This document shows positions 1 through 47,555 of a stretch of DNA of 64,000 bases, piece after piece (positions within the stretch are counted from its first letter, which is position 1; the number at the start of each line of letters is the position of its first letter). The notes under the pieces are model-generated. The model worked only from the letters and a program-made list of their open reading frames with translations. It made no database searches and was not told where the DNA came from. The position numbers and the translations under genes are program-made. The stretch spans positions 12,861,453-12,925,452 of the forward strand of contig NC_087084.1 in the NCBI RefSeq assembly GCF_026151205.1, read 5' to 3'. The DNA comes from Bolinopsis microptera (taxonomy: Eukaryota > Ctenophora > Tentaculata > Lobata > Bolinopsidae).

Positions 1-122
1 ATGCTATTTGTGACCTATTGTCTCATTACTTGCCGCTCTGGGGGGTAGCAAGGGAAATATTCTACAGATCCGAGCTGGAATGAGTAGTTGACATATAAGT
101 AGGCCTGGGACCATCAATGGGC

Positions 123-249
123 AGTTTTATTAATTTCTACACTAATATATAAACTTATTTGAGGGAAGATTAAGTTCCAATGTGTAACTGGTTCTCTCCG
201 GAGGACCAGACTTACACATCTTTTGGTAAGCCTTCCACAGGGATGGGCT
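123..249 (+). ncRNA. candidate SL RNA, copy 1
   Basis: Donor read as TTTGAG|GGAAG; terminal hairpin CCTTCC-ACAG-GGATGGG. Its unit has no 5S in the window because the window opens inside the spacer. Confidence 0.7.
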
Positions 250-491
250 CTAATAAACGATGCAAATTCTTAAAGATATAAAAGATGCTCCCGGTATTGT
301 ATCCTGACAGCCAGCTCCGACAGTCTTGTCCTCTTAGCATGGTTTTGTCGATCACTCAACCGCAAAAAGTAGAGCCAGCAATGATTGTTACAAACGAACG
401 TGCGTAATCGCCTAGCCATAAAAATTAAAAATTTGCAGGAACTGAGGAACTTAATATACTGAAAGGTTAGTGGCCGTAATTTATAACTTTC

Positions 492-616
492 GGATATCGG
501 CCATACGCGGGTTGAATACTCAACCCATCTCGTTTCAGATCTGGGAAGTTAGCAAACTGATATGGCGGGTTAGTATTGGATGGGTGACCGCTTGGGAATT
601 CCCGGTGCCCGTATCC
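492..616 (+). rRNA. 5S rRNA, copy 1
   Basis: Helix I opens GGATATCGGC and closes GTATCC followed by TTTT. Box C region reads TATTGGATGGGTGACCGC. Confidence 0.85.
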
Positions 617-1034
617 TTTTGCAACATGATTGTTTATTTCATCATTTTTGGAGGGGGACCTTTTTTGGGTAACGTGGACCCCTAAAATGGCACCCCCCAT
701 TTAGTCGAGAATGGCGGCCAAACATGAAGGGAAGGGGTCGGATCAGTGTCAAGAGCACTGTGATTTGTAGTGTGTGCAGCATCGGCGCTGCCATCTCCAC
801 ACGTCCAATTACATTCCCTTTTAGGTGGCGTGTTGGAAAGGCCATTTATGGGCAACATGATGATGGTGCATGGGTGACACTTTGGCCGTTAAATCATGCT
901 GATCTGGTGACCTCACGCTGTCTCATTACTGTGCCGCCTCGTGGAGGGTAGCAAGAGAAATATTCTACAGTTCCGAGATAGGAAAGAGCTTAGGGTGTGT
1001 GCATATAAGGTAGGCCTGGGACCACTCAATGGGC

Positions 1035-1164
1035 AGTTTTAATACTTTTCAACACTACTATATAACAAATAATTTGATGGTAGAATAAGTTCCTATGTGT
1101 AAACTGGGTTCTCTCCGGAGACAGACTTCACATCTTTTGGTAACTAGCCTTCACAAGGAGGGCT
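1035..1164 (+). ncRNA. candidate SL RNA, copy 2
   Basis: Donor read as TTTGATGGTAG (one base noise); Sm-like CATCTTTTGG kept; terminal hairpin ends GGAGGGCT. Confidence 0.7.
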
Positions 1165-1387
1165 CTAATAACGATTCAATAATAAAGTAAACAGAGCTCG
1201 GTATTGTATCCGGCAGCCAGCCTCCGAGTCATGTCCTCCTTGGCATGGTTTTGTGATCACAAGACCAAAAAGTAGCCAGCAATGGTTGTTACCAATCATA
1301 GTGCCTAATCGCCAGCCATAAAACTAATCTATTTGCAGGAACTGAGGAATTAATTATTAAATGTAGTGGCGTCAATTCATAACTTTC

Positions 1388-1523
1388 GGATTACGGCCAT
1401 ACTCGGTTGAATACACCCCTTTCTCTCTCCGATCTTGAGTAGTTGTAAGCAACTCGGCCAGGCGAGGGTCCGGGTTAGTACTTGGTGGGTGACCGCGTCT
1501 GGGAATTCCCGGGAGCCGTATCC
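1388..1523 (+). rRNA. 5S rRNA, copy 2
   Basis: Opens GGATTACGGC, closes CCGTATCCTTTT. Box A read as TTGTAAGCAACT. Confidence 0.85.
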
Positions 1524-1923
1524 TTTTGCAAATGATTTGTTAATTCCTCTTTTTTTTTGATGGAGGGTGTCCCTTTTTTGGGTAACGTGACCCCTAAATA
1601 TGTGCCCCCCCATTTCATCTGAAATGGCCGGCCCAAACCTGAGAAGTAGGGTCGGACGTGTCAAGAGCACTGTGGATGTAGTGTGGCAGCATCGGCTGAT
1701 CTCAACAGTCCAATTACATCCCTTTTAAGGTGGCTAATGGGAAAGCCTTTATGGGCCGAACATTGAGATGGTCAAGTGACACTTGCGTTTTAAATTCATG
1801 CATCTTGGGCCCTTCACGTGTTATCATTACTTGCCGCTCTGGTGGGGTAGCAAGGATATATTCTACGATCCGAGCAGGAAAGAGCTAGGTTGAATTATAA
1901 GTAGGCCTGGGACCATCAATGGC

Positions 1924-2054
1924 AGTTTTAATACTTTCATCACTACTATATACAAATAATTTTGAGGTTAGATTAAGTTCCAATGTGAACTGGATCTTCC
2001 TCCCGGAGACCAGACTTCACATGTCTTTTGGTAAGCCTTTCCACAAGGGGGGCT
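1924..2054 (+). ncRNA. candidate SL RNA, copy 3
   Basis: Donor TTTGAG|GTTAG; Sm-like TGTCTTTTGG; hairpin CTTTCCACAAGGGGGGCT. Confidence 0.7.
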
Positions 2055-2282
2055 CTAATATAAAACGATGCAATAATAAGATTAACTGAGCTCCCGGTTA
2101 TTGTATCCCTGACAGCAGCTCCGAGTCATGTCTTTAGCATGGTTTGTGGATCTCACCAATTAAAGTAGCCTGCAATGTTGTTTCAAGTCCAAGTGCTATT
2201 CGCAAGCCATTATAACTATTATGTTGCAGGAAGGAGGGGAATTAATTATTAATGTTGTGTGGCGTTAATTTCCTAAATTTTC

Positions 2283-2417
2283 GGATGTAAACCTCGGGGG
2301 CCCTCCCATACTCCGGTTGAATTACATCCCCTCATCTCGTTCGGACTGGGAAGTTTTTAGCAACTGCAGGCGGGTTAGTACTTGGATGGTGTGACGCTGG
2401 ATTCCGGTGCCGTATCC
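2283..2417 (+). rRNA. 5S rRNA, copy 3
   Basis: The 5' end is disrupted by an insertion of about 10 nt after GGATG; closes CCGTATCCTTTT. Confidence 0.75.
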
Positions 2418-2823
2418 TTTTGCAATTGATTTGTAATTTTCCCTCATTTTTTGAGAGGGTGGCCCTTTTTTGGTAACGGACCCGAAAATGGCCCCCCCAT
2501 TCATCGTGAATGGCCGGCCAAACCGAGAAGAGGTCGGATAACAGTGTCAAGAAGCACGTGATGTAGTGTGTGCAGCATTCCGAGCTGCTCATCTCCAACA
2601 CCGCATTAATCCCTTTAAGGTGGGCTAATGGGAAAGCATTAGGGCATCATGAGGATGGTCAGGTTGACACTTTTGGGGGTCGGTTAAATCATGCTATCTT
2701 GTGATCACGTGTCTCACTTTACTTGCCGCTTCTGGAGCGGTTGCAAGGAAATATTCTTCGATCGAGCAAGGTAAAGAGGCTAGGTTGGACTTGCATAAGT
2801 GAGGCCTGGGCCACTCTGAGGGC

Positions 2824-2955
2824 AGTATAAATACTATTCAACATACTATATACAAAATATTTGTGTGAGGTGAAAGATTAAGTTCAATGTGTAACTGGTT
2901 CTCTCCGGAGACCAGATTCACTCTTTTGGGTAGTGCCTTCCACAAGGAGTGGTCT
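2824..2955 (+). ncRNA. candidate SL RNA, copy 4
   Basis: Donor noisy (TGTGAG|GTGAAAG); stem-loop II TCTCTCCGGAGACCAG intact. Confidence 0.65.
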
Positions 2956-3185
2956 CTAATAAACGATTGGCAATATATAGATAAACAGAGCTCCCGGTAA
3001 TTGTATCCGACAGCCGCTCCGAGGTCTATGTCCTCGTTTTAGCATGGTTTTGTGATCAAAACCAAAAGTAGCCAGCAATGTTGTTACAATGTCAAATGCT
3101 AATTCGCCAGCCATAAAATCTAATATTTTGCAGGAACTGAGGAATTTAATTATTAAATGTAGTGGCCGTGTAATATCATACTTTA

Positions 3186-3315
3186 GGTATACGTGCGCTC
3201 CTATGGTTGAATACACCCCATCTCGTTCTCGATTCTGGGAAGTTAAGCAACTGCAGGCCGGGTTAGTTACTTGGAATGGGGTGACCGCATCCTGGGATTT
3301 CCCGGTGCCGTATCC
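3186..3315 (+). rRNA. 5S rRNA, copy 4
   Basis: Opens GGTATACGTG (noisy), closes GCCGTATCC. Box A GTTAAGCAACTGC exact. Confidence 0.8.
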
Positions 3316-3733
3316 TTGTTGCATAATGATTTGTTTAATTTCTCATTTTTTGAGACGGGTGACTACTTTTTTCGCGGTAACCGGTGACCCTAAAATGGCC
3401 CCCATTTCTTCCTGAATGCCGGCCAAACCCTGAGAAGAGGGTCGGGAACAGTGTCAAGAGCACTTCATGTGTATGTAGTGTGTGCAGCATCGAGCTGCAT
3501 CTCCAAATACACGTCCAATTAATCCTTTTAAGTTGGCTAATGGGAAAGGCATTATGGGCAAACATGAGATGGTCAGGTGACACACCTTGGCGTTACAATC
3601 AGGCTCTCTTGTGGACCTCACTGTTCGTCTCATACTTGCCGCTCTGGAGGGGTAGCAAGAGGAAAATCTTTACAGATCCGGCAAGGAAAGAGTAGGTTTG
3701 ACATTAAGTAGGCCTGGGACTCACACAATGGGC

Positions 3734-3869
3734 AGTCGTCTTAATCTTTCAACATTTACTAATATACAAATAATTTGAGGTAAGATTAAGTTCCAATTGT
3801 GTAACTGGTTTCTGTATCCGGAGACCCAGTCTTCACATCTTTTGGTAGAGCCTTCCACAAGGAAGGGCT
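3734..3869 (+). ncRNA. candidate SL RNA, copy 5
   Basis: Consensus donor TTTGAG|GTAAG; Sm-like CATCTTTTGG; hairpin CCTTCC-ACAA-GGAAGGG. Confidence 0.75.
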
Positions 3870-4102
3870 CTAATAAACGATGCAATAATAAAGATAAACA
3901 GAGCTCCCGGTATTGTATCCGACAGCCAGGCTCCGGCATGTCCTCTTAGGAGGGTTTTGTGATCAGACAACAAAAGTAGCCAAGCAATGTTGTTTACAAT
4001 CTAATTAAGTGCTAATCGCCAGCATAAAAAACTGTAATATTGTTGCTGGAACTGAGGAATTACATTTTTGTAATGTAGTGGCGTAATACTTCATAACTTT
4101 CT

Positions 4103-4220
4103 GGCTACGGCCATACTCGGTTGAATACACCCATCTCGTTCGATCTGGAAATTAAGCAACTGCAGGACCAGGGGATAGTACTTGGATGGGTGACGCCCTG
4201 GAATTCCCGGTGCCGTATCC
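4103..4220 (+). rRNA. 5S rRNA, copy 5
   Basis: Opens GGCTACGGCC, closes GCCGTATCCTTT. Near full consensus length (118 nt). Confidence 0.85.
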
Positions 4221-4624
4221 TTTGAAAATGATTTGTTTATTTTACTCATTTTGAGGAGGGTGACATTTTGGGTAACGTGACCTAAATGGCCCACCCATTC
4301 TTCGGAATGGGAACGGCCTACCTGAGAAAAGGTCGGAACCAGTGGTCAAGTGCACTGTGAATGTAGTGTCTGTGCCAGCATCGGAGCTGCATCTCCAACA
4401 CGTCAATTACATCATTTTAAGGTGGTAATGGGAAATGAGCCATTATGGGCAACATGAGATGGTCAGGTGTGACCACTTTGTGGCGTTAAATATGCTATCT
4501 TGTGACCTCACGTGTCTCATTACTTGCCGCTCTGGAGTTGTGTTAGCAAGAATAGTCTACTAGATCGAGTGCAATGGGAATGGCTGGTTGACATTATAAG
4601 TAGGCCTGGGACCACTCAATGGGC

Positions 4625-4757
4625 AGTTTTAATTCTTTCAACATACTATTTAACAAATATTTGAGGTACAGATTCAAGTTCCAATGTGGTAACTGGTTTA
4701 CATCTCCGGAGAAACCAGACTCACATCTTTTGGTAGAAGCCTTCCACAAGGAGGGTC
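4625..4757 (+). ncRNA. candidate SL RNA, copy 6
   Basis: Donor TTGAG|GTACAG; Sm-like CATCTTTTGG; hairpin CCTTCC-ACAA-GGAGGG. Confidence 0.7.
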
Positions 4758-4998
4758 TAATTAAAACGCATAGCAATAATAAGATCTAAACGCAGAGCTC
4801 CCGTATTGTATACCCGCGACAGCCAGCTCCGTAGGTATGTGTCCTATTTAGCTTGGGTTTTGTGTCACTGAAACCAAAAAGTAGCCAGCAAGTGTCACAA
4901 TCGCAAAGTGAGCTAATCGCCAGCCTTAAACTAATATTTGCAGGAACTGGGAGGAATTAATTATTAAATGTAGTGTGTGTAATTGTTCATAACTTTTC

Positions 4999-5123
4999 GG
5001 ATACGGCCATACTCGGAAGTTTACACCCGCATCTCGGTTCGATTTCGGGGAAGTTAAGCAATCTGCAGGCGGGTTGTAGCTGGTATGGGTGACCCTGGGA
5101 ATTCCGTGTTGCCGTCGCTATCC
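4999..5123 (+). rRNA. 5S rRNA, copy 6
   Basis: Opens GGATACGGCC; 3' strand noisy (GCCGTCGCTATCC). Confidence 0.85.
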
Positions 5124-5558
5124 TTTTGCATAATGATTTGTTAATCCTTCAACTCGCATTTTTTGGAGAGGGTGACCCTTTTTTTGGGTAACGTGACCCT
5201 AAAATGGGCTCCCCCCCTCGTTTCATGCTGAATAGCCGGCAAACCTGAGAAGAGTGTCGGAACTGTGTACAAGTGCACTGTGATGTAGTGTGGTGCAGAT
5301 CGAGCGCATCTCCAACACGTCCAATAACATCCCCCACCCCCCACTTTTAAGGTGGCTTATGGGAAAATAGCCATTTGTGGGCAACATGGGAGTGCTGGTC
5401 AGGTGACCACTTTGGCGTTAATTCATGCTATCTTGTGACCTCTGACGTGTCTCTTACTTGCCGCTCTGTGGTGGTTAGCAAGGAAATATTCTAAAGTATC
5501 CGAGCAAGGAAGAGTCTAGGTTGACAGTATAAGTAGCTTGGGACCACTCATATGGGGC

Positions 5559-5682
5559 AGTTTTAATACTTTAACATTACTATATAACAAATATTGAAGG
5601 TAAGATTAAGTTCCATGTGTAAAACTGGTTCTCTCGGAGACAGACTTCCACATCTTTTGGTATGCCTTCCACAAGGAGGCCT
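5559..5682 (+). ncRNA. candidate SL RNA, copy 7
   Basis: Donor TTGAAG|GTAAG; Sm-like CATCTTTTGG. Confidence 0.7.
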
Positions 5683-5910
5683 CTAATAATAGTGCAATAT
5701 AAAAGATAAACACTGTGTCTCCGGTATTGTATCCGACAGCCAGCTCCGTGTCATGTTTCTTCTTAGCATGGTTGTGTTCACAACCATAAAAGTAAGCCAG
5801 CAATGTTGTTACAATCAAAGTGCTAATTCGCAGCCATATGTAACTAATATTTGCAGGAACTGAGTGAATTAATTATTAAATGTTGTGGCCGTTATTTCAT
5901 TAACTTTCGT

Positions 5911-6034
5911 CGTTACGGCCAATACTTCGTTGTATACACCCCATCTCGTTCGATCTGGGAAGTTAAGCAACTGCAGGCCGGGTTTGTTCCTTGGAGGGTG
6001 ACCGCCTGGGGATGAGATTCCCGTGCCGTTATCC
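5911..6034 (+). rRNA. 5S rRNA, copy 7
   Basis: Opens CGTTACGGCC, closes GCCGTTATCCTTTT; box A GTTAAGCAACTGC exact. Confidence 0.85.
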
Positions 6035-6451
6035 TTTTCGAAAATGATTGTGTTATTTTTTCATTTTTTGATGAGGGGTGACCCTTTTTTGGGTGACGTG
6101 ACCCCTCTAAAATGGCGCCCCCCATTTCATGCTGAATGGCCGGCCAAACCTGAGAATGAGGTACCGGTACAGTGTTGCAAGAGCTCTGGGATTGTAGTGT
6201 GTGCCAGCTTCGAGCTGCATCTCAACACGTCAATTCCATCCCTTTTAGGTGGCTAACTGGGAAAGCCTAATTATGGGCAAACATGAGTTGGTCAGGTGAC
6301 CTCTTTGGCGTTAAATCATGCTTATCTTTTGTCCTCACGTGTTCTCATTACTTGCCGCTCTGTGCGGGTAGCAAGGAAATATTTCTACAGATCGAGAAGG
6401 AAAGAGCAGGTTGACATTATAAGTAGGGCTGGGACGCCACCTCTATGGCAC

Positions 6452-6582
6452 AGTTTTTATACTTTCACACTACTATATAACAATATAATTTGAGGTTAAG
6501 ATTAAGTTCCAACTGTGTGTAGCTGGTTCTCTCCGGAGACCAGACTTCACATCTTTTGGTAAGCCCTTCCTCAAGGAGGGCT
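6452..6582 (+). ncRNA. candidate SL RNA, copy 8
   Basis: Donor TTTGAG|GTTAAG; stem-loop II TCTCTCCGGAGACCAG and Sm-like CATCTTTTGG exact. Confidence 0.7.
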
Positions 6583-6800
6583 CCTTATAAACGATGCATC
6601 AATAAACGATAAACAGAGCTCCCCGGTATTGTATCCCGACAGCCGCTCCGAGTCATGGCCTCTTTGCATGGTTTTGTGATCACAACCAAATGTAGCCGCA
6701 ATGTTGTTACAATCAAAGTGCTAATCGCCATCATTAAAACTATATTGCAGGAACTGGAGGAATTAATTATTATATGTAGTGGCGTAATGTCATAAATTTC

Positions 6801-6917
6801 GGAAACGGCCATTCTCGGTTGAATACACCCCATCTCGTTCGATTGGGATGTTAAGCAACTGAAGGCCGGGTTAGTACTGGATGGGTGACCGCCTGGGGAA
6901 TTCCCGGTGCCGTATCC
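6801..6917 (+). rRNA. 5S rRNA, copy 8
   Basis: Opens GGAAACGGCC, closes GCCGTATCC; box C GGATGGGTGACCGCCTGG exact. Confidence 0.87.
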
Positions 6918-7330
6918 TTGTTGCTAATGATTTGTTAATTTCCTCATTTTTTGAGAGGGGTGACCCTTTTTTGGTACCTGTGACCCCTTATTTGGCCCAC
7001 CCAGTTTATCTGATGGCCGGGCCAAACCTTGAGAAGACGGTACGGAACGTGTTCAAGAGCCACTGTTGATGTGTTGTGTGCATCATCTGAGCTGCATCTC
7101 CAACACGTCCAATTAGTCATCCCTTTTAAGGTTGGCTAATGGGGAAAATCATTATGGGCTACATGGAAGGTCAGGTGACCACTTTGCGTTAAATCATGCT
7201 ATCTGGTGCACCTCATCGTGTCTCTATTACTTGACGCTGGGGAGGGTTAGCAAGGAAATATTCTACTGATCCGAGCAAGGGGAAAGAGCTTGGTTGGACA
7301 TATAAGTAGCCTGGGACCACTCATATGGGC

Positions 7331-7458
7331 AGTTTTTAATTGACTATCAACACTACTATATAACAATAATTTGAGTGTTAAGATTAAGTTCACAATGTGT
7401 AATGGTTCTCTACGGGACCAGACTTCAATCTTTTGGTATGCTTCCACAAGGGAGGGCT
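7331..7458 (+). ncRNA. candidate SL RNA, copy 9
   Basis: Donor noisy (TTTGAGTGTTAAG); hairpin CTTCC-ACAA-GGGAGGG. Confidence 0.65.
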
Positions 7459-7685
7459 CTAATGAAAACGATGCAATAATAAGTTAAAACAGAGCTCCGG
7501 TATTGTATCCTCGATCAAGCGCTCCGAGTCTATGTCCTCTCTTAGCATGGTTTTGTGATCACAACCAAAAGTAGCCAGCTATATGTGTTTACAATCAAAG
7601 TGCAATCGCACAGCCAGAAAATAATATTTGCAGGAATGAGGAATTTCATTATTAATGTAGTTGGCCGTAATTTCATAAACTTTCG

Positions 7686-7809
7686 GGATCGGCCATACTC
7701 GTGTTTGAATTTTACACCCCTCCTGTCGTTCGATTCTGGGTAAGTTAAAGCAACGCAGGCCGGGTTAGTTCTTGGTATGGGTGACCGCCTGGAATTCCGG
7801 TGCGTATCC
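7686..7809 (+). rRNA. 5S rRNA, copy 9
   Basis: Opens GGATCGGCC, closes GCGTATCCTTTT. Confidence 0.82.
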
Positions 7810-8204
7810 TTTTGCAAATGATTTGTTAATTCTCATTTTGTGAGAGGGTGACCTTTTTTGGGTAACGTGACCCTAAAGAATGGGCCCCCCCATTTCATCT
7901 CGATTGGCCGGGCCAAACATGAGAAGAGGTCGAACAGTGGCAAGAGCACTGTGATGTGATGTGTTGCAGCCTCGAGCTGCATCATCCACACGTCCATCTA
8001 CATCCTTTTAAGGTGGCTTAGGGAAATCCATTATGGCAACATGATGATGGTCAGGAGTGACCCTTTGGCGTTAAATCATGTATCTTGTGACTCACGTGTT
8101 CTCATTAACTTGCCGCTCTGGAGGGTAGCAAGAAATATTCTACAGATCCGAGCAAGGGAAAGAGCTGGTTGGACATTTAGTAGGCTGGGAACCACTCTAT
8201 GGGC

Positions 8205-8331
8205 AGATTTAATACTTTCAACACTTAGCTAGTATAACAAATATATTTGAGGTAAATTAAGTTCCAATGTGTAAGTGGTTCTCTCGGAGACAGGACTTAA
8301 CATTTTTGGTAAGCCTTCCACAGGAGGGTCT
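8205..8331 (+). ncRNA. candidate SL RNA, copy 10
   Basis: Donor TTTGAG|GTAAA; Sm-like CATTTTTGG, here without the interrupting C. Confidence 0.7.
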
Positions 8332-8567
8332 AATTACGATGCATATAATAAAGATATACAGAGCTCCCGGTATTGTATCCCGAAGCCAGCTTCGAGTCTT
8401 GTCCTTTAGCAGATGGTTTTCGCTTGTGCGCAACCATAAATAGCCAGGCTCATGTTGTTACAATCGCAAAGTGCTTAAATCGCCCAGCCATAAAACTTAT
8501 ATTGCAGGAACTGCTCAGGTACATTTAATTATTTTAGATAGAGAGTGCCGTATTTTCAATAACTTTC

Positions 8568-8688
8568 GGATACGGCCATACTCGGATGAATACACCCCAT
8601 CTCGCTCAGATGTGGGAAGTTTAGCAACTGACAGGCCGGGTTAGTTCTTGGTGGGTTGACCGCCTGGGATTTCCGGGTGCCGTATACC
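8568..8688 (+). rRNA. 5S rRNA, copy 10
   Basis: Opens GGATACGGCC, closes GCCGTATACC. Confidence 0.85.
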
Positions 8689-9120
8689 TTTGGCAAATGA
8701 TTTGTTAATTTCCTCATTTTTTTTTGAGAGGGTGACCTCTTTTTGAGGTAACGTGACCCACTAAAATGGCACCCCCACCTTTTCATCTGAATGGCGGCCA
8801 TACCTGAGAAGTGGTAGAACAGTGTCAAGAGCACGTGCTGTGTGTGTGCAGCATCTCGGAGAGCTGCGCGATCTCCACTTCGTCCAATTACATCCCTTTT
8901 AAGGGGGTTTTGGGAAAGCCATAGGGCAACATGAGATGGTACAGTGTGACCACTTTGGCGTTCCAAATCATGCTATATTGTGAACTCACGATGTCTCCAT
9001 TACCTCGTGTCCGCTATGGTGGGGTTGAGGAAATATTCTACAGTATCCGAGCATGGAAGAGAGCTTGGTTGACATATAAGTAGGCCTCTGCCATTACGTC
9101 GTGGGACAACTCATATGGGC

Positions 9121-9255
9121 GATGTTTTTCAAGATACTGTCTAAACACTACGCATATAACAAATAATTTGAGGTAAGATTAAGTTCCAATGTGTAACTGG
9201 TTCTCTCCGGAGACCATGACTTCACATTTTTGTAAAGCCTTCCACAAGGAGGGCT
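9121..9255 (+). ncRNA. candidate SL RNA, copy 11
   Basis: Exon 5' half noisy, donor TTTGAG|GTAAG exact, stem-loop II exact; hairpin CCTTCC-ACAA-GGAGGG. Confidence 0.7.
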
Positions 9256-9491
9256 CTATATTATAAACGATGCAATTATAACAGATAAAAGTGATCCCGG
9301 TATTGTATCCGTCAGCCAGCTCACGAGTCATGTTCCTCTTAGCCAATGGTTTTTGTGATCACAAACCAAAAAAGTAGCCAGCAATGTTGTTACAATCAAG
9401 TGCTAATCGCCTGCCTTAAAACTAATATTTGTCAGGAACTGAGGACATTAAATTATTAAATGTAGTGGCCGGAATTTTCCATAGACTTTTC

Positions 9492-9614
9492 GCGATACGG
9501 GCATGACTCGGTTTGATAGATACACCCATCTATCTGTGCGATCTGGAAGTAAGCTACTGCAGGCCGGGGTTAGTACTGGATGGGTGACCGCCTGGGAATT
9601 CGGGTGCCGTATCC
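9492..9614 (+). rRNA. 5S rRNA, copy 11
   Basis: Opens GCGATACGGG, closes GCCGTATCCTTTT; box C GGATGGGTGACCGCCTGG exact. Confidence 0.85.
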
Positions 9615-10046
9615 TTTTGCAAATGATTTCTTAATTTCCTCAATTTTTTGAGAGGGTTGACCTCTTTTGGGGTTACGTGACCCCTAAATGGCCCCCTTTT
9701 CGTCTGAATAGGTGCCGGCCAAAACCGAGAAGAGGTCGGAACATTGTCAGAGCACTGTGATGTAGTGTGTGCCAGGCATCGCGAGCCTGCTATCTCCAAC
9801 TCGTCAATTAGACATCCCTTTAAGTGGCTAATGGGAAAGCCATTATGGGCAACCCCTCCCTTCTCCTGAAGATGGTCAGGTGACCCAACTTTGGCGTCCG
9901 TTAAATATGCTATCTTGTGACCTCTACGTGTCTCATTACTTGCGCTCTGGAGGGTAGCAAGGGAAATATTCTTCAGATCCGAGAAAGGGATGTAAGAGCT
10001 TGCGTTGACTCATTATAAGAGGCCTGGGACCGCACTCAATCGGTGC

Positions 10047-17649: not shown

Positions 17650-17777
17650 AGTTTTAATACTTTCAACATACTATATAAACAAATAATTTGAGGTATAGAT
17701 TAAGTTACAATGTGTAACTGGTTCTCTCCGGAGGACCAGACGTCACAACTTTTGGTAAGCCTTCCACAAGGAGGGCT
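17650..17777 (+). ncRNA. candidate SL RNA, copy 20
   Basis: One of the cleaner reads: exon opens AGTTTTAATACTTTCAAC, donor TTTGAG|GTATAG, hairpin CCTTCC-ACAA-GGAGGG exact. Confidence 0.75.
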
Positions 17778-18007
17778 CTAATATAACGATGCAATAATTA
17801 AAAGATAAAACAGGAGCTCCAGGGTATTGTATCCCGACAGCCAGCTCCTGGTCATGTTCCTCGTAGCATGTTTGTGTGATTCACAACCAAAAAGTAGCCA
17901 GCATGTTTTTACAATCAAGTGCTAATCGCCAGCCATAGAAAAACTAATACGTTGCGAGGAACTGAGGAATTAATTATTAAATGTTGTGGCCGTAATTTCA
18001 TAACTTC

Positions 18008-36722: not shown

Positions 36723-36813
36723 TCTAATAAACGATGCAATATAAGATAAACAGAGATCCCGGTATTGTATTCCCGACAGCAGACGCCGACAGTCTTGTCC
36801 TCTTAGCATGGTT

Positions 36814-37083: not shown

Positions 37084-37520
37084 TGTTTGCCGAATGATTT
37101 GTTAATTTCCTCATTTTTGTGAGAGGGTGACCCTTTTTTGGGTAATCGTAGACCCCATAAAAGGGCCCCCACCATTTCATCTGAGATGGCCGGCCAAGCC
37201 TGAGAGTAGAGGTTCGGAAACAGTGTCACAGAGACTGTGATGTAGTGTCGTGCAGCAAGACGAGCTGCATCTCCAAAACACGTCCGCGTGTACATTACAT
37301 CGCAGTTTAGAAGGTGGCTAGGGAGAGAAGGCCATTATGGGCAACATGAGTGTGTCAGGTGACCATTTGGCGTTTTTAAATCATGCTATCTTGTGAACCT
37401 CAACGTGTCTCATTACTTGGCCGCGCTCTTAGGAGGGTAGAAGGAAATATTCTACAGATTCCGAGCAAGGAAAGAGCTAGGTTGACATATAAGTAGGCCT
37501 GGGGGACCACTTCAATGGGC

Positions 37521-37673
37521 AGAAGAACTTTTAATACTTTCAACATCTACTGGAGAGTATAACAAAGATAATTTGATGTAAGATTAAGGCTTCAATGTGT
37601 AAACTGGGTTCTCTCCGCGAGACCAGTACGCTTTTCAACATTCTTTTGGTACGCCTTACACGAAGGAGTGGCT
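37521..37673 (+). ncRNA. candidate SL RNA, copy 41
   Basis: Donor TTTGAT|GTAAG; TATA-like CATATAAG upstream exact; small insertion at the exon start. Confidence 0.65.
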
Positions 37674-37909
37674 CTAAGAACGATGCAATAGTAACGATTA
37701 AACAGGCTCCCCGGGTAATTGATATCCGCGACAGCCAGCTCGAGTCATGTCTAGCTTAGCATGGTTTTGTGATCATCAACAAAAAGTAGCCGCCTATGTT
37801 GTTACATATTCAAAAGTGCTAATCGCCAGCCATAAAACTTAAAGATTTGGCAGGAAACTTGGGGAAATTAATTATTAAATGTGGTGGCCGTAATTTGACT
37901 ATAACTTTC

Positions 37910-38039
37910 GGATGTTACGGGCCATACTCGGTTGGAATTACACCCCATCTCGTTCGATCTGGGGAAGTTAAAAGCTAATGCAGGCCGGGTTATAGTACTT
38001 GGATGGGTGACCGCCTGGGAAGTCCCGAGTGCCGTATCC
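37910..38039 (+). rRNA. 5S rRNA, copy 41
   Basis: Opens GGATGTTACGGGCC; box C exact; closes GCCGTATCC. Confidence 0.85.
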
Positions 38040-38449
38040 TTTTGCAATGATTTGTTAATTTCCTCAGTTTTTTGAGAGGGTGATCCCTTTTTTGGGTAAG
38101 CGTGACCCCTGAAAGATTGGCCCCCCTTTAATCTGAATGGCCGGCCAAACCTGAGAAGAGGACGGAACAGTGTTCAAGAGCACTGATGATGTAGTGTGTG
38201 CTCAGCATCGAGCTGCATCTCCAAACACGTCCTATTACATCCCTTTAAGGTGGCTAATGGGAAAGCCATTATGGGCAACATGAGATGGGTCAGTTTGACC
38301 ACTTGGCGTTAATTGGGATCTTGTAGGAGACATCACGTGTCTCATTATTGCAGCTCTGGAGGGTAGCAAGGAAAGTAGGTCTACAGATCCGTGCAATGGA
38401 TAAGCGCTAGGGTTGACTGTTATAAGTAGGCCTGGACACTCAATGGGGC

Positions 38450-38588
38450 AGTTTTAATACTGTTCAGACACTACTATTTAACAAATAATTTGAAGGGGTA
38501 AGATTATAAGTTCCATTATGTGTAAACTGGTTCTCTCCGTGAAGACAAGACTTCACATGCTTTTGGTAAGCCTTTCACAAGGAGGGCT
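38450..38588 (+). ncRNA. candidate SL RNA, copy 42
   Basis: Donor TTTGAAGGG|GTAAG; terminal GGAGGGCT exact. Confidence 0.68.
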
Positions 38589-38815
38589 CTAATAAACGAT
38601 TTGCAATAATAAAGATAACAGAGCTCCCCTGGTATTGTATCCAGTGACAGCCAGCTCGAGTCATGTCCTCGTAGCATGGTTTTGTGATCACAACCAAAAG
38701 TAGCCAGCAATGTTGTTATCAAAAAAATCAAAGTGGAATCGCCAGCCATAAAACTAATTATTGCAGAATGAGGAATTCAATTATTAAATGTAGTGGCCGT
38801 AATTTCATAACGTTC

Positions 38816-38940
38816 GGATACGGCCGTTACTTCGGTGAAAAATACACCCTTCTGTTCGATATCTGGGAGTTAAGCAACGGCAGGCGGGTTAGTACTTGGA
38901 TGGAGCCTGTCGCCTGGGGAATTCCCTGGTGCCGTATTCC
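38816..38940 (+). rRNA. 5S rRNA, copy 42
   Basis: Opens GGATACGGCC; closes GCCGTATTCCTTTT. Confidence 0.85.
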
Positions 38941-39358
38941 TTTTGCAAATGATTTGGTTTAATTCCTCATTTTTGAGAGGGGTGGACCTTTTTTGGTGTA
39001 ACTGTAGCCCCCTAGAAGAATTGGCCCCCCATTTCATCGTGAATGGCGGCCAACCTGAGAAGACGGTCGGAACCAGTGTCTAAGAGCACTGTGATGTAGT
39101 GTGTGCAGCATCGAGCTGCATCTCCAAGACAACGTCCAATTACATCCCTTTTAATGTGGCTAATGGGAAAGCCATTTATGGGCGAACATGAGTTGGGTCA
39201 GTTGTGACCACTTTGCGTTAAATATGCTATCTTTGTGGATCTCACGTGTCCTCATTTTCTTTGCCGCTCTGGAGGGTAGCAAGGAAAATTCTACAGATCC
39301 GGAGCAAGGAAAGAGCTAGGTTGACTTATAGTAGGCCTGGGGACCAGACTCAATGGGC

Positions 39359-39495
39359 AGTTTTTTGAATACTTTGAACACTACTATATAACAAATAATT
39401 TGAGGTAAGGATAATTTCCAATGTGTGTAATGGTTCTCTCCGGAGACCAGGACTTCACGTTCTTGTTTGGGTAAGCCTGCCACAAGGACGGTGCT
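39359..39495 (+). ncRNA. candidate SL RNA, copy 43
   Basis: Donor TTTGAG|GTAAGG; stem-loop II TCTCTCCGGAGACCAG exact. Confidence 0.68.
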
Positions 39496-39721
39496 GTGTC
39501 TAATGTTAAACTGAGCAATAATAAAGATAAAACGAGCTCCCGGTATTGTATCCCCGACAGACAGTCCGAGTCATGTCCTCTAGCATGTTTTGTGATTCAC
39601 ACCAAAAAAGTAGACCAGCAAATGTTGTTACAATCAAAGTGCTAAGACGCCCGCCATAAAACTAATATTTGCAGGAATGAGGAAATTCATTTTAAATGTA
39701 GGTGGCCGTAATTTCTAACTT

Positions 39722-39857
39722 GGATCCGGCCATATCGGTTGAATTACACACCATCTCGTGTTTCGACTCTTGTGAAGTTAAGCATCTGCAGGCCGGGTTG
39801 TTCTTGGTATGGTCGTGACCGGCGCTTGGAATTGTCCCGCGCGCGGTGCCCGTATCC
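39722..39857 (+). rRNA. 5S rRNA, copy 43
   Basis: Opens GGATCCGGCC; middle inflated by G/C insertions; closes GCCCGTATCCTTTT. Confidence 0.8.
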
Positions 39858-40296
39858 TTTTGCAAATGATTTGTTAATTTCCCTCATTATTTGAGAGGGT
39901 GACCCTTTTTTGGGTAACGTGACCCCTAAAATGGCCCCCCATTTCATCTGAATGGCCGGCCCCCCTAAACCTGGAAGAGGTCGGTAACAGTGTCGAAGAG
40001 TGCACTGGTGAAGTTAGTGTGCCTGCAGCATCGCGTGCTGCATCTCTCGAAAACGTCAAATTTAGATTCCCGTAAAGGTGGCTAAATGGTGAAAGCCATT
40101 ATGGGCAACATGAGATGGTCAGGTGAATCCACTTTTTTGTTTGGCGTTAAATCGACTATCTGTGGGACCGCTCGACGTGTGATTGACTGTAGCCTGTCTT
40201 TCTGGGAGGAGTAGGAGAAAATATTCAGTGGCGGATTCGGCTAAGGAATAGATGCTAGGTGACATATAAAGTAGGCCTGGGAACGCGTCCATGGGC

Positions 40297-40442
40297 AGTT
40301 TTAATTACTTTCAACACTTGTATATAACAACTATTGAGGAGGTAATGAGTAGATGTATCGCAATGTGTTAAACGAGGGAGACTTCTCGGCGAGCAGATGT
40401 CAGCTTATTAGATAAGAGCCTTCCCGAAGGAGGATGGCGTCT
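40297..40442 (+). ncRNA. candidate SL RNA, copy 44
   Basis: Strongly noisy: donor TTGAGGAG|GTAATG, Sm region unreadable, terminal hairpin partly kept. Confidence 0.52.
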
Positions 40443-40703
40443 AATAAACGATGCGATAATGAAAGAAAACATGATAGTCGCGTCGGCGTATTTGTGATGG
40501 GTGTGGTGTGGGAAAGCTCAGAGCCAGCCCGAGTCATTGATAACTTAGCATGGTTGTGTGAGCAACAACCAAAAGAGTAGCAGCAATGTTGTTACAATCA
40601 ATCTAGTGCTAATCGCCAGCCATTTAAACTAATTATTTATTGTGAGGAACTGAGGATTAATTATTACAATGTAGTGTGGCCGTAATTTCTGTATCTTCCG
40701 GAA

Positions 40704-40836
40704 GGATACGGCCCTCTACTCGGTTGAATACACCCCTTCTCGTTCGATCTGGGAAGTTAAGCAAACTGACAGGCCGGGTTAGTACTTGGATGGTTATGTG
40801 ACCGACTCTGCGGGAATTCCCATGGTGCGTCGTATC
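40704..40836 (+). rRNA. 5S rRNA, copy 44
   Basis: Opens GGATACGGCC; box A GTTAAGCAAACTG; 3' strand noisy (GCGTCGTATC). Confidence 0.8.
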
Positions 40837-41251
40837 TCGTTGTGCAAATGATGTGTTGTTAATTGTTTTCGTCGTGTTGTTGAGAGGGTGGACCCTTTTT
40901 TTGGAGTAAACGTGACCCTACAAATGGGCCCCCATTTCATCTGACATGGCCGGCCAAACCTGAGATAGAGGTCGGAACGCAGTGTCAAGAGCACTGTGAT
41001 GTGTGTGTGCTGACATCGGCTGCTATGTCCAACACGTCCAATTACATCCCGTTTAAGGTGGCTCTATGGGGAATGCCATTATGGGCACATGGATGGTCAG
41101 TGTGACCAGATTTGGCGTTAAATCATGCTATCTTGTGACCTCACGGTTATCATTACGCTTGCCGCTCTGAGGGTAGCAAGGAAATATTCTACAGATCGAG
41201 CAAGGAAAGAGCTAGGTTGACATATAAGTAGGCCTGGACCCACTCATGGGC

Positions 41252-41378
41252 AGTTTTAATACTTTAACCTACATATAACAAAAATAATTTGAGGTAAGAT
41301 TACGTTCCAAGTGTGTAACTGGTTCTCTCCGAGACCAGACTTCACAATCTTTTGGTAAGCCTTACTCACAGGAGGGCT
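41252..41378 (+). ncRNA. candidate SL RNA, copy 45
   Basis: Donor TTTGAG|GTAAG exact; TATA-like CATATAAGTAGGCC 29 nt upstream exact. Confidence 0.74.
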
Positions 41379-41615
41379 CAAAATAAAACGATGCAATAAT
41401 CAAGATAACAGAGCTCCCGCGGTATAGATCCCCGTCAGCCAGCTCGAGTCCATGTCTTCTTAGCATGGTTTTGTGATCACAACCATAAAGGTAGCCAGCA
41501 ATGCTTGTTACAAAACTCACAAAGTGCTAATCGCGCCAGCCATAAAACTAATATTTGCAGGTACTGAGGAAGTTAATTTATTTTTACTTGTAGTGGCCGA
41601 TTTTCATAACGGTTC

Positions 41616-41756
41616 GGATACGGCACCACTATCGGGTTGGATTCACCCCATCTCGTTCGATCTGGGAAGTTAAGCAAAACTGCAGGCCGGGTTAGTGATC
41701 TTGTGATGGTTGTGAGGACATGACCTGGGAGTTCATCGGTGCACGTAAGAATCTCC
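41616..41756 (+). rRNA. 5S rRNA, copy 45
   Basis: 5' half good (GGATACGGCACC, CATCTCGTTCGATCTGGGAA), 3' half degraded (ATCTCCTTTT at the end). Confidence 0.72.
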
Positions 41757-42020
41757 TTTTTGGCAGAGGAGATGTTTAGTTTGAATTTCCTGTTGTTTGA
41801 GAGGGAAGTGACCCTCTTTTTTGGGGTAACGTGACCCTTGAATAATGGCCCCCCCCATTTCATAATTGAATGGCCGGCACAGAAACTCTGATGAGGGAGT
41901 AACGGAGAACTCAGTGATTTCCAAGTGCACTCTGTGATGTTAGTGTGTGCAGCATTCGGCTGCATCTCCAACACGTTCCAATTACATCCCTTTTAAGGTG
42001 GCTATTGGGAAAGCCATTAT

Positions 42021-42056
42021 GTAAATAAAAATAAATAAACCAAAAAATAAAACGGG
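42021..42056. other. A-rich low-complexity insert, probable read artefact
   Basis: TAAATAAAAATAAATAAACC and following A-rich bases sit between CCATTAT and GGGACAA of the spacer, in one unit only. Confidence 0.7.
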
Positions 42057-42235
42057 ACAAATGAGTGGTCTGGGAGACCACTTTTGGCGTTTAAATCATG
42101 CTTTTGTGACCTCACGTGTCTCTTACTTGCCGCTCGGAGGGTAGCAAGGAATATTCTACAGTCCGAGCAAGAGGAAAGGGTAGGTTGACGTTAATAAGTG
42201 GAAGCATGGGAGACGTCTACGTAAGCGCAATGGGC

Positions 42236-42369
42236 ATGTGTTAATACGTTTTTGCTAACACTACTTATAACAAATAATTTGATTTGGGTAAGAATAATAT
42301 CCAATGTGTAATGGTTCTTCCGGAGACCAGACTTCACATCTTTGGGAAGCTTCCACAGAAGGAGGGGCT
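42236..42369 (+). ncRNA. candidate SL RNA, copy 46
   Basis: Donor TTTGG|GTAAG; Sm region shortened (CATCTTTGGG). Confidence 0.6.
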
Positions 42370-42643
42370 CTCTAATAACGAAGGCCAATAATAAAGATAA
42401 ACAGAGCTCCGGTATTGTATCCCTTGACGCAGCGCGCTGCCTGGTCAGTGTTTCCTCTGTTAGCGTATGGTTTGTTGGTGTATCATGATTCCAGATAAGT
42501 AGAGCCATCGCAATGTTGTGTTTGACTATATCAATTAGTGTCGATATCGTCCAGCCATTGTAAATGCTTATTATTTTGCAGGAACCCTTGAGGAGATATT
42601 AATTATTTGAAATGTAGATGGGCCGTAATTCAATGCTTTGCGA

Positions 42644-42781
42644 GAGATACGGCATATGTAATTCGGTGTTGAATAGTACCCACCTATGTTCTCGATATGG
42701 GAGAAGTTAGTAAAGCAACTGCAGGCGGGTTGAGTATCGTGGAAGGGTGACCGCCTGGGAAATTCCCGGTTGCCGGAGACC
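42644..42781 (+). rRNA. 5S rRNA, copy 46 (badly read)
   Basis: Helix I noisy on both sides (AGAGATACGGC; GCCGGAGACC); box A and GGTGACCGCCTGGGAA recognisable. Confidence 0.65.
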
Positions 42782-43216
42782 TTGAGTGGCTCAAGATGAT
42801 TTGGAATTTCCGTCGTTTTTTTGAGGGTGACATTTTGATGGGTATCAGTCGTGTTGCCCGCTAAAATGGCCCCCCATTTCATTGAATGGCCGGCCAAAAC
42901 GAGAAGAGTCGAACAGTGTCCAAATAGAGCACTGTGATGTAGTGTGTGTCAGCATTCGAAGCTGCACTCCAGCGTCCAATTACATCCTTTTAGGTGGCTA
43001 ATGGGAAAGCCATTTATGGGCAACATGCGTATGGTCAGGTGACCACTTTGGCGTGTTGTAAATCATGCTATCTTGTTGACTTCACGTGTCTCAATTGTGC
43101 TTGCCGCTCTGGAGGTATTAGCAAGGGAAATATATCTAAGAATCCAGAGCAAGGAAAGTGCTTGGTTGAACTATATAGTAGTTAGGCTGGGACTCTGTGT
43201 TCAGTGTGTTGTGGCC

Positions 43217-43360
43217 GTTTAATTACGTTCTAATCTAGACGCTTACTATTGTAAAAAATAATTTTGAGGTAAGATTAAGTTTCGTCAAGTGTAAAATGGT
43301 TCTCTCCGGAGACCAAGACTTCACATCAATTGTTGTTGAAGCCTGATCCACGAGTGGGCT
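43217..43360 (+). ncRNA. candidate SL RNA, copy 47
   Basis: Exon noisy, donor TTTTGAG|GTAAG; stem-loop II exact; Sm region CATCAATTG. Confidence 0.58.
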
Positions 43361-43633
43361 ATCTAAATGAAACTGAGATGCAAGATGTAATATGAAGGAA
43401 TAATGTGCAGGTAGCTCGCGCGGTTATTGTATCCCGACAGCCTGCTCCGAGGCATGTCCTCTTAGCATGGTTTTGGGATCACAAGTCAATGAAAGTTAAG
43501 CCTAGCAATGTTGTTACTCATAATCTCTGAAGTGTCTAACTACCAGCCATAAAACTAAAGATTTGCATGGAATGAGAATATAAATTATTAAAAGAGTAGT
43601 CGGCTCTCGTAACTTTCATTAAATGCTTTTTGC

Positions 43634-43780
43634 GGAGTACAGAGCCAAGATACTCTCGGTGTGAATGAGACAATCCCATCTCGTTCGATTTGGAAGAGAA
43701 GCAACTGCCAGGCAATAGGTGTTAGTACTTAGGATGGAGTTGGATCAGCTACGGGGATTCACGAATGCGGATGATATACC
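43634..43780 (+). rRNA. 5S rRNA, copy 47 (badly read)
   Basis: Only CATCTCGTTCGATTTGG, GCAACTGC and GTTAGTACTTAGGATGG align well; ends uncertain. Confidence 0.55.
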
Positions 43781-44241
43781 TCTTTTGCAAATAGATGATT
43801 TGTATAAATTCCTCATTTAATTTGAAGGAGGGATGGACTGTTTGTTTTTGTGTGTAAAGCGAGACCCCTAAAATGGCCCCCCATTTTCTATGCTGAATGG
43901 CCGGCCAAAACCTGAAGAAGGTGGTCGGATACTGTGTGTCAAGAGCACTGTGATGTAGTGTGTGCAGCATCGAGCTGCATCTCTAACAGTGTTTGTCAAT
44001 GAGATATTCCCTTTTAAGGTGGCTAAATCGGGAAAGCCAGTATGGGCAACTTGAGTTGTGGCAGGGGTCCGCACTTGTGGCGAGTTAATCATTGCATATG
44101 TCGTTTGGGACCTCTTTTGTGTCTTGATTACTTGCTCGCTCTGGGGGTAGCTGAATGGATAGTGTATTTCTACAGTATTCGAGCAAGGAAAGAGCTAGGT
44201 TGACATTTAGATAAGTAGGCCTGGGAAATCACTCAATGGGC

Positions 44242-44402
44242 GGTTTTAATACTTTTCAACCACTACTATATAACAAATGATTTGAGCGTAACATTATAAG
44301 ATTAAGTTACGGATATGTTTGTTTGTTGAAAATTCTGGGTGTTCTCTCCGGCGACCAGACTTCATCATTCTTTGGTATGCCTGTTTCCACAAGGAGTGGG
44401 CC
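44242..44402 (+). ncRNA. candidate SL RNA, copy 48
   Basis: Donor TTTGAGC|GTAAC with a duplicated GTAACATTATAAGATTAAG stretch; hairpins recognisable. Confidence 0.58.
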
Positions 44403-44647
44403 TGTCTAATAAACGATGCAATATCTAAAGATAAACAGAGCTTGAGCGGTATGTGTGCTTATCCGCCGACGTGACCAGCTCGCGATGTCATGTCCTCTTA
44501 GCATGTTTTGTGTTCACAACCAAAAAGTAGCCAGCGCGCATATCGGTTGTGACAATCAAAGTTGCTAATCGCCGGCCTTAAAACGAATTATTTGCGGATT
44601 CTGGGAATTATATATTAAATGTAGTGGCCGTAATTTCATAACTTTTC

Positions 44648-44772
44648 GGATACGGCCATACTCGCTTCGTTGAAATACCCCCATCTCGTGCGTTCTGGGA
44701 AGTAAAGCATTCTGCAGGCCGGGTTAGTACTTGGTTTGGGTGACCGACTGGGAATTCCCGGTTGCGTAATCC
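44648..44772 (+). rRNA. 5S rRNA, copy 48
   Basis: Opens GGATACGGCC; closes GTTGCGTAATCC. Confidence 0.83.
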
Positions 44773-45170
44773 TTTTGCAAATGAGTTGTTAAATTTTTCA
44801 TTTTTTGAAGGGTGACCCTTGTTTGGGTAACGTTGGACCCCTTAAAAATGGCCCCCCCATCTATTCTCTGAATGGGCGGCCAAACCTGAGAAGAGGTGTT
44901 TCGGAACAGTTGTAAGAGCACTGTGATTGTAGTGTGAGCAGCATCGAGCTGCATCGCCAACACGTTCCAATTACCTCCCTTTTAAGGTGGTAATGGGAAA
45001 GCATTATGTTTTAGGAAGGCTAAGGCTAAAATGAGATGGTCAGGTGGTACCACGTTTGGCGTTAAATCATGCTATCTTGTGACCTCACGTGTCTCATTAC
45101 TTGCCGCTTGGAGGGTATAGTCAAAGGAATTATTCTGAGATCCGAGCAAGGTAAGAAGCCTAGCGAGGTT

Positions 45171-45196
45171 GTTTTTTTGTTTTTTTTTTTTTGTTT
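45171..45196. other. T-rich low-complexity insert upstream of SL copy 49
   Basis: T-run between GAGGTT and ACATATAAG, splitting the conserved promoter block of one unit only. Probable read artefact. Confidence 0.65.
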
Positions 45197-45232
45197 ACAT
45201 ATAAGTAGGGCCTGGGACACACTCAATGGGCA

Positions 45233-45366
45233 AGTTTTGTAATACTTTCAGAGCACTGTTTGATAACAAATAGATTTGAAAAAGGGTAAGATTAAGTTCC
45301 AATGTGTAACTGGTTCTTCCGGAGACCGATTCAACATCTTTTGGTAAGCTTCCCACAAGGAGGGCT
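45233..45366 (+). ncRNA. candidate SL RNA, copy 49
   Basis: Donor with A/G insertions (TTTGAAAAAGGGTAAG); Sm-like CATCTTTTGG exact. Confidence 0.62.
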
Positions 45367-45679
45367 CTCTTAGATTAACCGATTGCATAAGAAAACAGAT
45401 AGACTCAGAAAGCAGTGTTTTATTTTCGGTATTGTATCCCTCGACAAGCATCAGCTACCAAGTCAAGTGTGACCTCACTCTTGTAGCAAATGGTTTTGTG
45501 ATACAACTCCAAAGAGTAGCCAGCCAATGTGGACGTTAACAATCAAAGTGCGAAGTCGCATAGCATGAAAACTAAAGATTTGCATAGGAAAGTGCGGAAT
45601 TAATTATTAAATGTAGTGGGCCGTGAAGAATCGGTGTCTAATAACTTTCGGGAAGAATAAAATAGAAAAAGAAAGGAGA

Positions 45680-45813
45680 GGATCCATACTCGGTTGAATA
45701 CACCCCCATCTCGTTCGATCTAGGGAAGTTAGAGAGTGACTGGATATGGACCGGGTTCGTATTGATGGAGTGGACTATCCTGGGAATTACCCGAGAGAGA
45801 TGCTAGAGAATCC
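45680..45813 (+). rRNA. 5S rRNA, copy 49 (badly read)
   Basis: An A/G-rich insert of about 30 bp precedes it; opens GGATCCATACTCGG; 3' half degraded. Confidence 0.6.
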
Positions 45814-46307
45814 TATATTTGACCAAATGATTTGTTAATTGATCCTCTCATGATTATAGAGGAGAGAAGAAGGTGACATCGTTGTTTGGGAGAAACGAGT
45901 AATGAAGACCTACTAGTGAAATGGTACCCCTCCTGAGTCAGCTGAATGGCCAGCCAAACCTGAGAGATAGGAGGGTCGGGAACACGTTAGGCGCAAGAGC
46001 AATCTGTGATAGTAGGGTGTGATTTGGCAGCAATCGGCTGCATCTCCAACCCACGTCCAATTGATAGATCCTTTATTCTGGTGGCGTAATAGGAAGCCAT
46101 TATAGGGCATGTCAAGGATGATGGTCAGGTGACACTAGTTTGTGGCAGTTAAATCTGTGCTTATGTTTGTGGACCTTCACGTGTCTCAAGATTACTTGCC
46201 GCTTGTCTGGAGAGGTGGAAAGGAATATATTTACAGATCCGAGCAAGGAGAGAAAGAGCTGTGGTTGACATTTAGAGTAGGCCCTGGGACCACTTACTCA
46301 GATGGGC

Positions 46308-46456
46308 AGCTTTTTAATTACTTTCTCAACACTACAATATAAGAGCGAAATAGATCGAGGTAAGATTTGAAGGTTTCCAATGTGTGACTGGTTTCTCTCC
46401 GCGTGAGACCAGGCTGTGCACATCTTTTGGTAAGACCTTCACAGAAAGGAGGAGCT
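46308..46456 (+). ncRNA. candidate SL RNA, copy 50
   Basis: Donor ATCGAG|GTAAG; Sm-like CATCTTTTGG exact; hairpin noisy. Confidence 0.6.
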
Positions 46457-46705
46457 TCTAATAGAACTGAAGAATATGTAAATAGATAAGAATAAGGGAG
46501 TGTGTGCCGGGTATGGTTATGTCGCGTGACGAGTCAGCTCCGAGTGTCGATGTCCTTGTGTTGAGATGGTTTTGTGTGCTGACAACAAAAAGATAGCCAG
46601 CGATGTTGTTACAATCAAAGTGCTAATCGCCACAGCCATAAAACTAATATTTGCAGGAATGAAGGAATTAATTATTAAATGTAGTGGCCGTATTTATAAC
46701 ATTCG

Positions 46706-46823
46706 GGATACGCGCCATTACTCGTTGAATAAACCCCATTCTGTTCGATCTGGGAAGTTAGCAACTGCAGGCCGGGTAGTATTTGGATGGTGTGACGCCT
46801 GGGAATTCCCGGGGCCGTATTCC
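46706..46823 (+). rRNA. 5S rRNA, copy 50 (last)
   Basis: Opens GGATACGCGCC; closes GGCCGTATTCCTTTT. Last 5S before the array ends. Confidence 0.84.
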
Positions 46824-47229
46824 TTTTGCAAATGATTTGTAGAATTTCCCTTAGATTTTTTGAGGGTGAACTCCTTTTTTGGGTAACGTGACCCCTAAAA
46901 ATTGTGCCCCCCCATTGATCTGAATGGCCGGCCAAATCCTGGAAGAGGTCGGACAGTATCCCACAAGCTACTGTGATGTAGTTGTGTGCAGCATCGTGCT
47001 GCATCTCCACACAGTCCAATTACATCCCTTTTAAGGTGGCCTAATGGGGGAAAGCCATTATGGGCAACATGAGGATGGTACAGGTGACCACTTGGCGTTT
47101 ATTCTGCTATCTTGTGACCTCACGTGTCTCATTTACTTGCCGCTTGGAGGGGTAGCAGGAATTATTATACAGATCCGGCAAGAAAGAGCTAGGTTGAATA
47201 TAAGTAGGCCTGGGAACCACTCAATTGGC

Positions 47230-47364
47230 AGTTTTTATTACTTTCAACACTACTATATAACAAATAATTTGAGGTAAGATTAAGTGTCCAATGTGGAAAC
47301 TGCGTTTTCTCTCGGAGACTGACTTCACCATCTTTTGTGAGTATGCCTTCCACAGGGAGGGTCT
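47230..47364 (+). ncRNA. candidate SL RNA, copy 51 (last)
   Basis: Donor TTTGAG|GTAAG exact. The unit stops about 190 bp further on, before its 5S gene, so this SL copy has no downstream 5S. Confidence 0.7.
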
Positions 47365-47555
47365 CTAATGAAACGAGGGCAATAATAAAGATTGACAGAG
47401 CTCCGGTATTGTATCCGACAGCCCTGCTCCGAGTCCTTGTCTCTTAGCATGGTTTTGTGATCACAACCAAAAAGTAGCAGCTATGTTGTTACAATCAAAG
47501 TGCTAATCGCCAGCATATAAAAAACTTAATATTTGCAGGAACTGCGGAATTAATT

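Follow-up and report, generated by a model that had tools for sequence, protein, structure and literature searches.

Spliced-leader (SL) trans-splicing in ctenophores has already been published: for Hormiphora californensis, the section on the leader reports a 43-nt core exon on 56% of Iso-Seq reads and counts 718 and 491 leader copies in ctenophore genomes, the nature of the 718 Hormiphora copies being left open there (PMC8527503). That section describes the leader, and not an SL RNA gene, its promoter or any linkage to 5S rRNA genes. In other phyla, and with other exons, the passages concerned place SL RNA genes in a repeat or cluster with 5S genes in nematodes (SL1; PMC1657053, PMC7986045) and copepods (PMC4664967), and together with 5S genes in Oikopleura, where the units form inverted repeats (PMC8008620). 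In dinoflagellates, genomic retrocopies retain the SL at their 5′ ends (in the relevant part of PMC6050394). Here we analyze a 64,000-bp stretch of the Bolinopsis microptera genome (C13:12861453-12925452, the window) that carries a long tandem array of 5S and SL RNA genes, and search the whole genome (264,652,675 bases in 232 contigs) for related loci. We conclude, with a probability of roughly 0.94, that each unit of the array encodes 5S rRNA and, in the same orientation 404 bp further downstream, a ctenophore SL RNA that donates its exon to many pre-mRNAs; that figure covers the array organization and the trans-splicing jointly.

The units of the window run head-to-tail at about 900 bp, with both genes on the + strand throughout positions 1-47555, unlike C. 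elegans, in which SL1 and 5S lie on opposite strands. A clean 5S gene and a clean SL RNA gene from a polished unit (L010) were locally aligned to 50 unit segments that we cut from the array, and both were present in 50 of 50. The minimum 5S score was 57, against a maximum of 27 for reversed and reverse-complemented 5S; for the SL the minimum was 62, against 34 with the same kinds of control, and at one unit (29440) the SL alignment spans positions 38-124 only. Rfam placed 24 5S copies in the window above its gathering score and 42 at E up to 5, all on the + strand. A covariance model of the SL RNA found 51 copies, all on the + strand at E ≤ 6e-5, with three − strand matches at E > 3. Because exon-only copies elsewhere in the genome score up to 46 bits with this model, the eight of the 51 that score no higher are called by their alignments, which reach into the intron part, and not by the model. 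A clean unit measures 880 bp, with 404 bp between the 5S gene and the start of the SL exon and 357 bp from that start to the following 5S gene. A preliminary description, made from the window alone, had proposed about 50 same-strand units with a small RNA some 400 bp downstream of 5S, and this layout is borne out; its remark that 5S-SL linkage is known in some lineages likewise agrees with the reports from copepods, Oikopleura and nematodes cited above.

The SL exon is 43 nt long (AGTTTTAATACTTTCAACACTACTATATAACAAATAATTTGAG), starts AGTTTTAATACTTTC and ends TTTGAG; it is short, lies at the 5′ end of a small RNA gene and is followed there by a GT donor, the arrangement that marks an SL RNA, and the RNA as judged by sequence is about 128-130 nt long. 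Aligned without gaps, the exon is identical to the published Hormiphora leader at 34 of 43 positions, a level reached by 0 of 200,000 shuffles, and both end AATTTGAG. By this match the exon is of the known ctenophore SL type and not new (PMC8527503, section on the leader), although it had gone unrecognised in the preliminary description. Of the suggestion made there that the SL locus may be undescribed, the exon part falls, and the 5S-SL linkage in a ctenophore may be new: we found no report of it in our searches of the open-licence literature, nor there of SL-tagged retrocopies in a ctenophore, so absence is not proven in either case.

Six SL loci (two on C13 and one each on C5, C3, C1 and C2) agree in every base of the exon and in the first 19 of the intron. 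They were found by exon-plus-donor patterns allowing three mismatches, a search that would overlook strongly diverged loci. Two upstream blocks, one at −50 to −33 and the other at about −128 to −98, are largely retained at these six loci while the other flanks drift, as expected for a promoter of the small nuclear RNA (snRNA) type; the names of such elements are those we presume to apply, including that of the block we take to be like a proximal sequence element (PSE) in the last unit of the array. The proposed fold comprises one hairpin around the donor and another in the centre, the Sm-like site AUCUUUUGG and a 3′ hairpin (GCCUUCC/GGAGGGC), with the Sm-like site between predicted hairpins; the folding z-score of the intron part was −3.6 and that of the whole RNA −2.6, and single-sequence folds concur on the last parts of this fold and differ around the donor. 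In the mechanism that we propose, the SL RNA would be transcribed from its own snRNA-type promoter, would bind Sm proteins, and would donate its 43-nt exon from the GAG/GTAAG junction to AG acceptors of many pre-mRNAs. We infer its transcription, capping, Sm binding and polymerase; read from the DNA are the structure of the unit, the identity of the exon, the donor, the conservation, and the many sequences to which the exon is joined.

That joining is visible in dispersed copies of the exon. The exact 25-base exon end has 1203 matches in the genome, and exon plus SL intron with at most three mismatches has 76; both reversed controls gave 0. Taking the second count from the first leaves about 1,100 exact copies apart from recognisable SL genes; a few of these copies could belong to arrays in raw-read sequence (two exact 25-mers fall in the window). 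We read 61 dispersed copies: 15 (L017-L031) picked by their near-donor letters, and 46 from C1, hand-picked along the chromosome from 96 C1 places, the single C1 SL gene (L015) being taken separately. None of the 46 copies from C1 has the SL intron. Their exons abut 25 acceptor clusters, and over all 61 copies the number is 31; some of these clusters may be distant relatives (by eye, L064 and the L053 cluster). The copies are truncated at varying 5′ points; in 16 of the 61 the exact match extends back to AGTTTT or one base past it, and in none does it go beyond, which fixes the 5′ end of the exon within one base. The exon is thus joined to many different sequences exactly at the donor junction, as an SL is, and trans-splicing is read here from genomic retrocopies. 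The preliminary identification of the small RNA as an SL RNA with an exon ending TTTGAG is sustained, since many different sequences carry that exon at their 5′ end.

We traced parents for two genes only. An EMC6-family open reading frame (ORF; PF07019, E 3.5e-18) at C1:14433186 is intronless and consists of SL exon, ORF and A-rich tail. Its candidate parent at C1:10217801 (−) matches the first 79 bases of the SL-bearing copy at 99%; there CATCTCATCAG precedes the junction, giving an AG acceptor, GT follows the match, and no SL-like exon lies within the fetched 3.1 kb. For the second gene, which encodes a secreted repeat protein, there are two SL-bearing intronless copies (L028, L029). Their parent, at C3:14105323, has three exons and shows CTTGTTCTAG (AG) where the junction lies; its 3.1-kb locus contains no SL-like exon. 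On this genomic evidence, the SL-bearing intronless copies and their leaderless parents are best taken as the residue of trans-splicing followed by reverse transcription.

Long interspersed nuclear elements (LINEs) are among the sequences that begin with the SL exon. The sequence after the exon in L024 has 30 genome matches at 74-100% identity, and the SL exon precedes the LINE start in 10 of 10 loci fetched from these 30. Two of them (L098, L099) have an altered junction and a common upstream flank, and L093 and L094 likewise share an upstream flank, so we count about eight independent insertions. One copy (L092, continued in L101, C3:3523400-3529400) has an ORF1 of 323 aa, without a Pfam match, and an ORF2 of 1012 aa that contains endonuclease as well as reverse transcriptase domains. 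Because the SL exon itself ends in AG, LINE transcripts could be trans-spliced anew at the same place. We therefore raise the tentative idea, for which we would give somewhat less than even odds, that ctenophore LINEs use the SL as a renewable 5′ end, re-trans-spliced at the same place, with one leader kept per copy over generations. Dinoflagellate transcripts often carry several SL relics, as described in part of PMC6050394, whereas here a second SL 3′ end occurs within 60 nt upstream in 0 of the 61 dispersed copies, and here LINEs also start with the SL. An exception to the single relic is L070, with three SL copies 100-140 bp apart; this locus, and the partial repeat of the exon's 5′ part in L020 and L095, weigh against a simple single-leader rule.

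Some dispersed SL exons stand in head-to-head pairs within about 50-70 bp (L040, L047, L058, L061, L069); on such palindromic exons Rfam gave microRNA models only, all below their cut-offs. The short sequences after some exon copies (L037 and L058 families), some of the head-to-head pairs among them, contain the letters CTGAAGA...GAAA, which we take to be hammerhead-like, and Rfam listed no hammerhead ribozyme at E ≤ 0.5 in 20 loci.

Beyond the window, 5S and SL are linked in the clean arrays L009 and L010. A third locus, L011 (C13:15240900-15248000), holds eight SL genes and four 5S genes, units of about 705 bp without 5S alternating with units of about 854 bp that retain it. On C3, 13.511-13.551 Mb (L012-L014, C3:13511053-13551312), the SL forms a 591-bp array with 36 exact matches to exon plus intron start, and the units read contain no 5S. 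Linkage to 5S is thus common but not required. Variants separate the copies, with CUCUCCGGAG and loop ACAA in the 5S-linked genes and CUCUCAGGAG and loop UUCA on C3. By eye, the 591-bp units share the spacer stretch GAGAGGGTGACCC with the 5S-SL units, so one array may derive from the other.

The state of the letters raises the question of whether the long array itself arose artificially in assembly, where gaps were filled with raw reads. Units in the window diverge 11-26% from their consensus, mostly by indels, and the assembly was made, according to its description, from PacBio continuous long reads (CLR), with gaps filled with TGS-GapCloser and polishing by pilon (PMC10232365). Compared with clean genes, window copies show 11-12% gaps and 3-4% mismatches (identity 85.6% for 5S and 84.0% for SL). 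Because this damage is mostly indels and is as heavy in 5S as in SL, it points to raw long-read error from gap filling, and real divergence between units was rejected in its favour. Three 10-kb stretches left of the window (L086-L088) hold the same array at 87-90% identity to clean genes, and in the right flank the copies of the 35-bp and 176-bp arrays are 96% and 98% alike. That the array exists only through gap filling is nevertheless very improbable, since clean 5S and SL units occur at C13:12.937 Mb (reappearing at C13:12937000, 28 kb beyond the array), C13:15.24 Mb and C5:21.34 Mb; the array is real, but its copy number and letters in the window are unreliable. If real, its small RNA might still be an ordinary spliceosomal or SmY-type snRNA linked to 5S and no SL donor, the least probable of the alternatives that we weighed. 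Linkage of 5S with snRNA genes is known in animals, and Rfam returned weak SmY matches of 22-26 bits, but every one is below the 39-bit cut-off, and no U1-U6 family appeared in window positions 1-48500 at E ≤ 5 or in the clean SL loci L009, L010, L012, L015 and L016 at E ≤ 0.5. The likeness of the exon to the published ctenophore SL, its joining to many sequences exactly at the donor junction, and the parent/retrocopy pairs also speak against an snRNA. With no Rfam match above cut-off, both U1-U6 and SmY were rejected as identities.

It would be hardly credible that the dispersed copies represent either SL RNA genes or first exons spliced in cis in the ordinary way, and so are uninformative on trans-splicing, given the absence of the SL intron from all C1 copies read, the varying 5′ truncation with no copy running more than one base past AGTTTT, and the two genes (the only two traced) whose parents lie elsewhere with no exon nearby. 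Unlikely, yet deserving more weight than these, is that the 5S-linked SL copies are relics and that the working SL RNA comes from the 5S-free C3 array and single loci: the exact matches in that array and the excess of SL over 5S genes in L011, where linkage is not strictly kept, fit this, but the 5S-linked copies on C13 and C5 retain exon, intron start, 3′ hairpin and upstream blocks, and over 130 bases no difference separates the 10 copies read on C5. We prefer an array that encodes 5S and a presumably functional SL RNA, against which several points weigh. The C3 array could be the main source of SL RNA; all the support that we offer comes from genomic DNA; the fetched 3.1-kb locus of the EMC6-family parent yielded none of its later exons; and the Sm-like site differs from what we take to be the textbook motif. 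Compensatory base changes were absent as well (0 of 27 pairs, 5 distinct rows), so the proposed fold rests on energy and conservation, and not on covariation.

Features of the window and the inverted 5S pairs found elsewhere are collected in Table 1.

Table 1. Coordinates of features in the window (window positions) and of inverted 5S pairs (contig positions)
Feature	Position	Strand	Basis or remark
Tandem array of ~900-bp 5S + SL RNA units (50 5S, 51 SL RNA), unpolished sequence	1..47555	+	alignment and covariance model
Top-scoring 5S rRNA gene in window (one of 50)	6801..6918	+	Rfam RF00001, 81.4 bits
Top-scoring SL RNA gene in window (one of 51): exon, GT donor, hairpins, Sm-like site	17650..17784	+	model R1, 133.9 bits
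Final 5S rRNA gene of array	46706..46823	+	Rfam
PSE-like promoter block, 33-50 bp upstream of last SL exon	47180..47197	+	6-locus alignment, largely conserved
Final SL RNA gene of array	47231..47371	+	covariance model
Non-array DNA: 35-bp minisatellite 48039-49203, GAG-rich stretch 53321-55378, further short repeats	47556..58602	.	
Satellite, 176-bp copies derived from piece of 5S-unit spacer; 30.6 copies in window	58603..64000	+	continues past window
Inverted 5S pair	C3:2780523(+)/2783742(-)		
Inverted 5S pair	C3:20269999(+)/20273132(-)		
Inverted 5S pair	C11:15365722(+)/15368390(-)		
Inverted 5S pair	C130:14121(+)/17310(-)		

The spacer piece that has turned satellite gives 58 BLAST matches beyond the window in L089 (C13:12926000-12935999). 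By eye, window positions 49800-50240 resemble part of a DDE transposase. 5S genes that lack an SL neighbour (L001-L008) are dispersed in repeated sequence, several of them as inverted pairs that are spaced 2.7-3.2 kb apart and enclose 33-bp tandem repeats; such pairs might represent a mobile foldback element with a 5S gene in each arm. Their alignment shows seven of the eight loci, without L001, whose 5S is one base off the query, and L002 appears different upstream from the others.

The SL RNA gene with its upstream blocks, the three 5S-linked arrays and the one 5S-free array provide material for comparison with nematodes, copepods and tunicates, and the parent/retrocopy pairs make the joining of the leader visible from a genome alone. 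Counts of leader copies in ctenophore genomes, such as the 718 and 491 given in the leader section of PMC8527503, need not equal counts of SL genes. If LINEs do renew their 5′ ends with the SL, the roughly 1,100 dispersed leaders would for the most part be relics of past trans-splicing and retroposition, and not SL genes.

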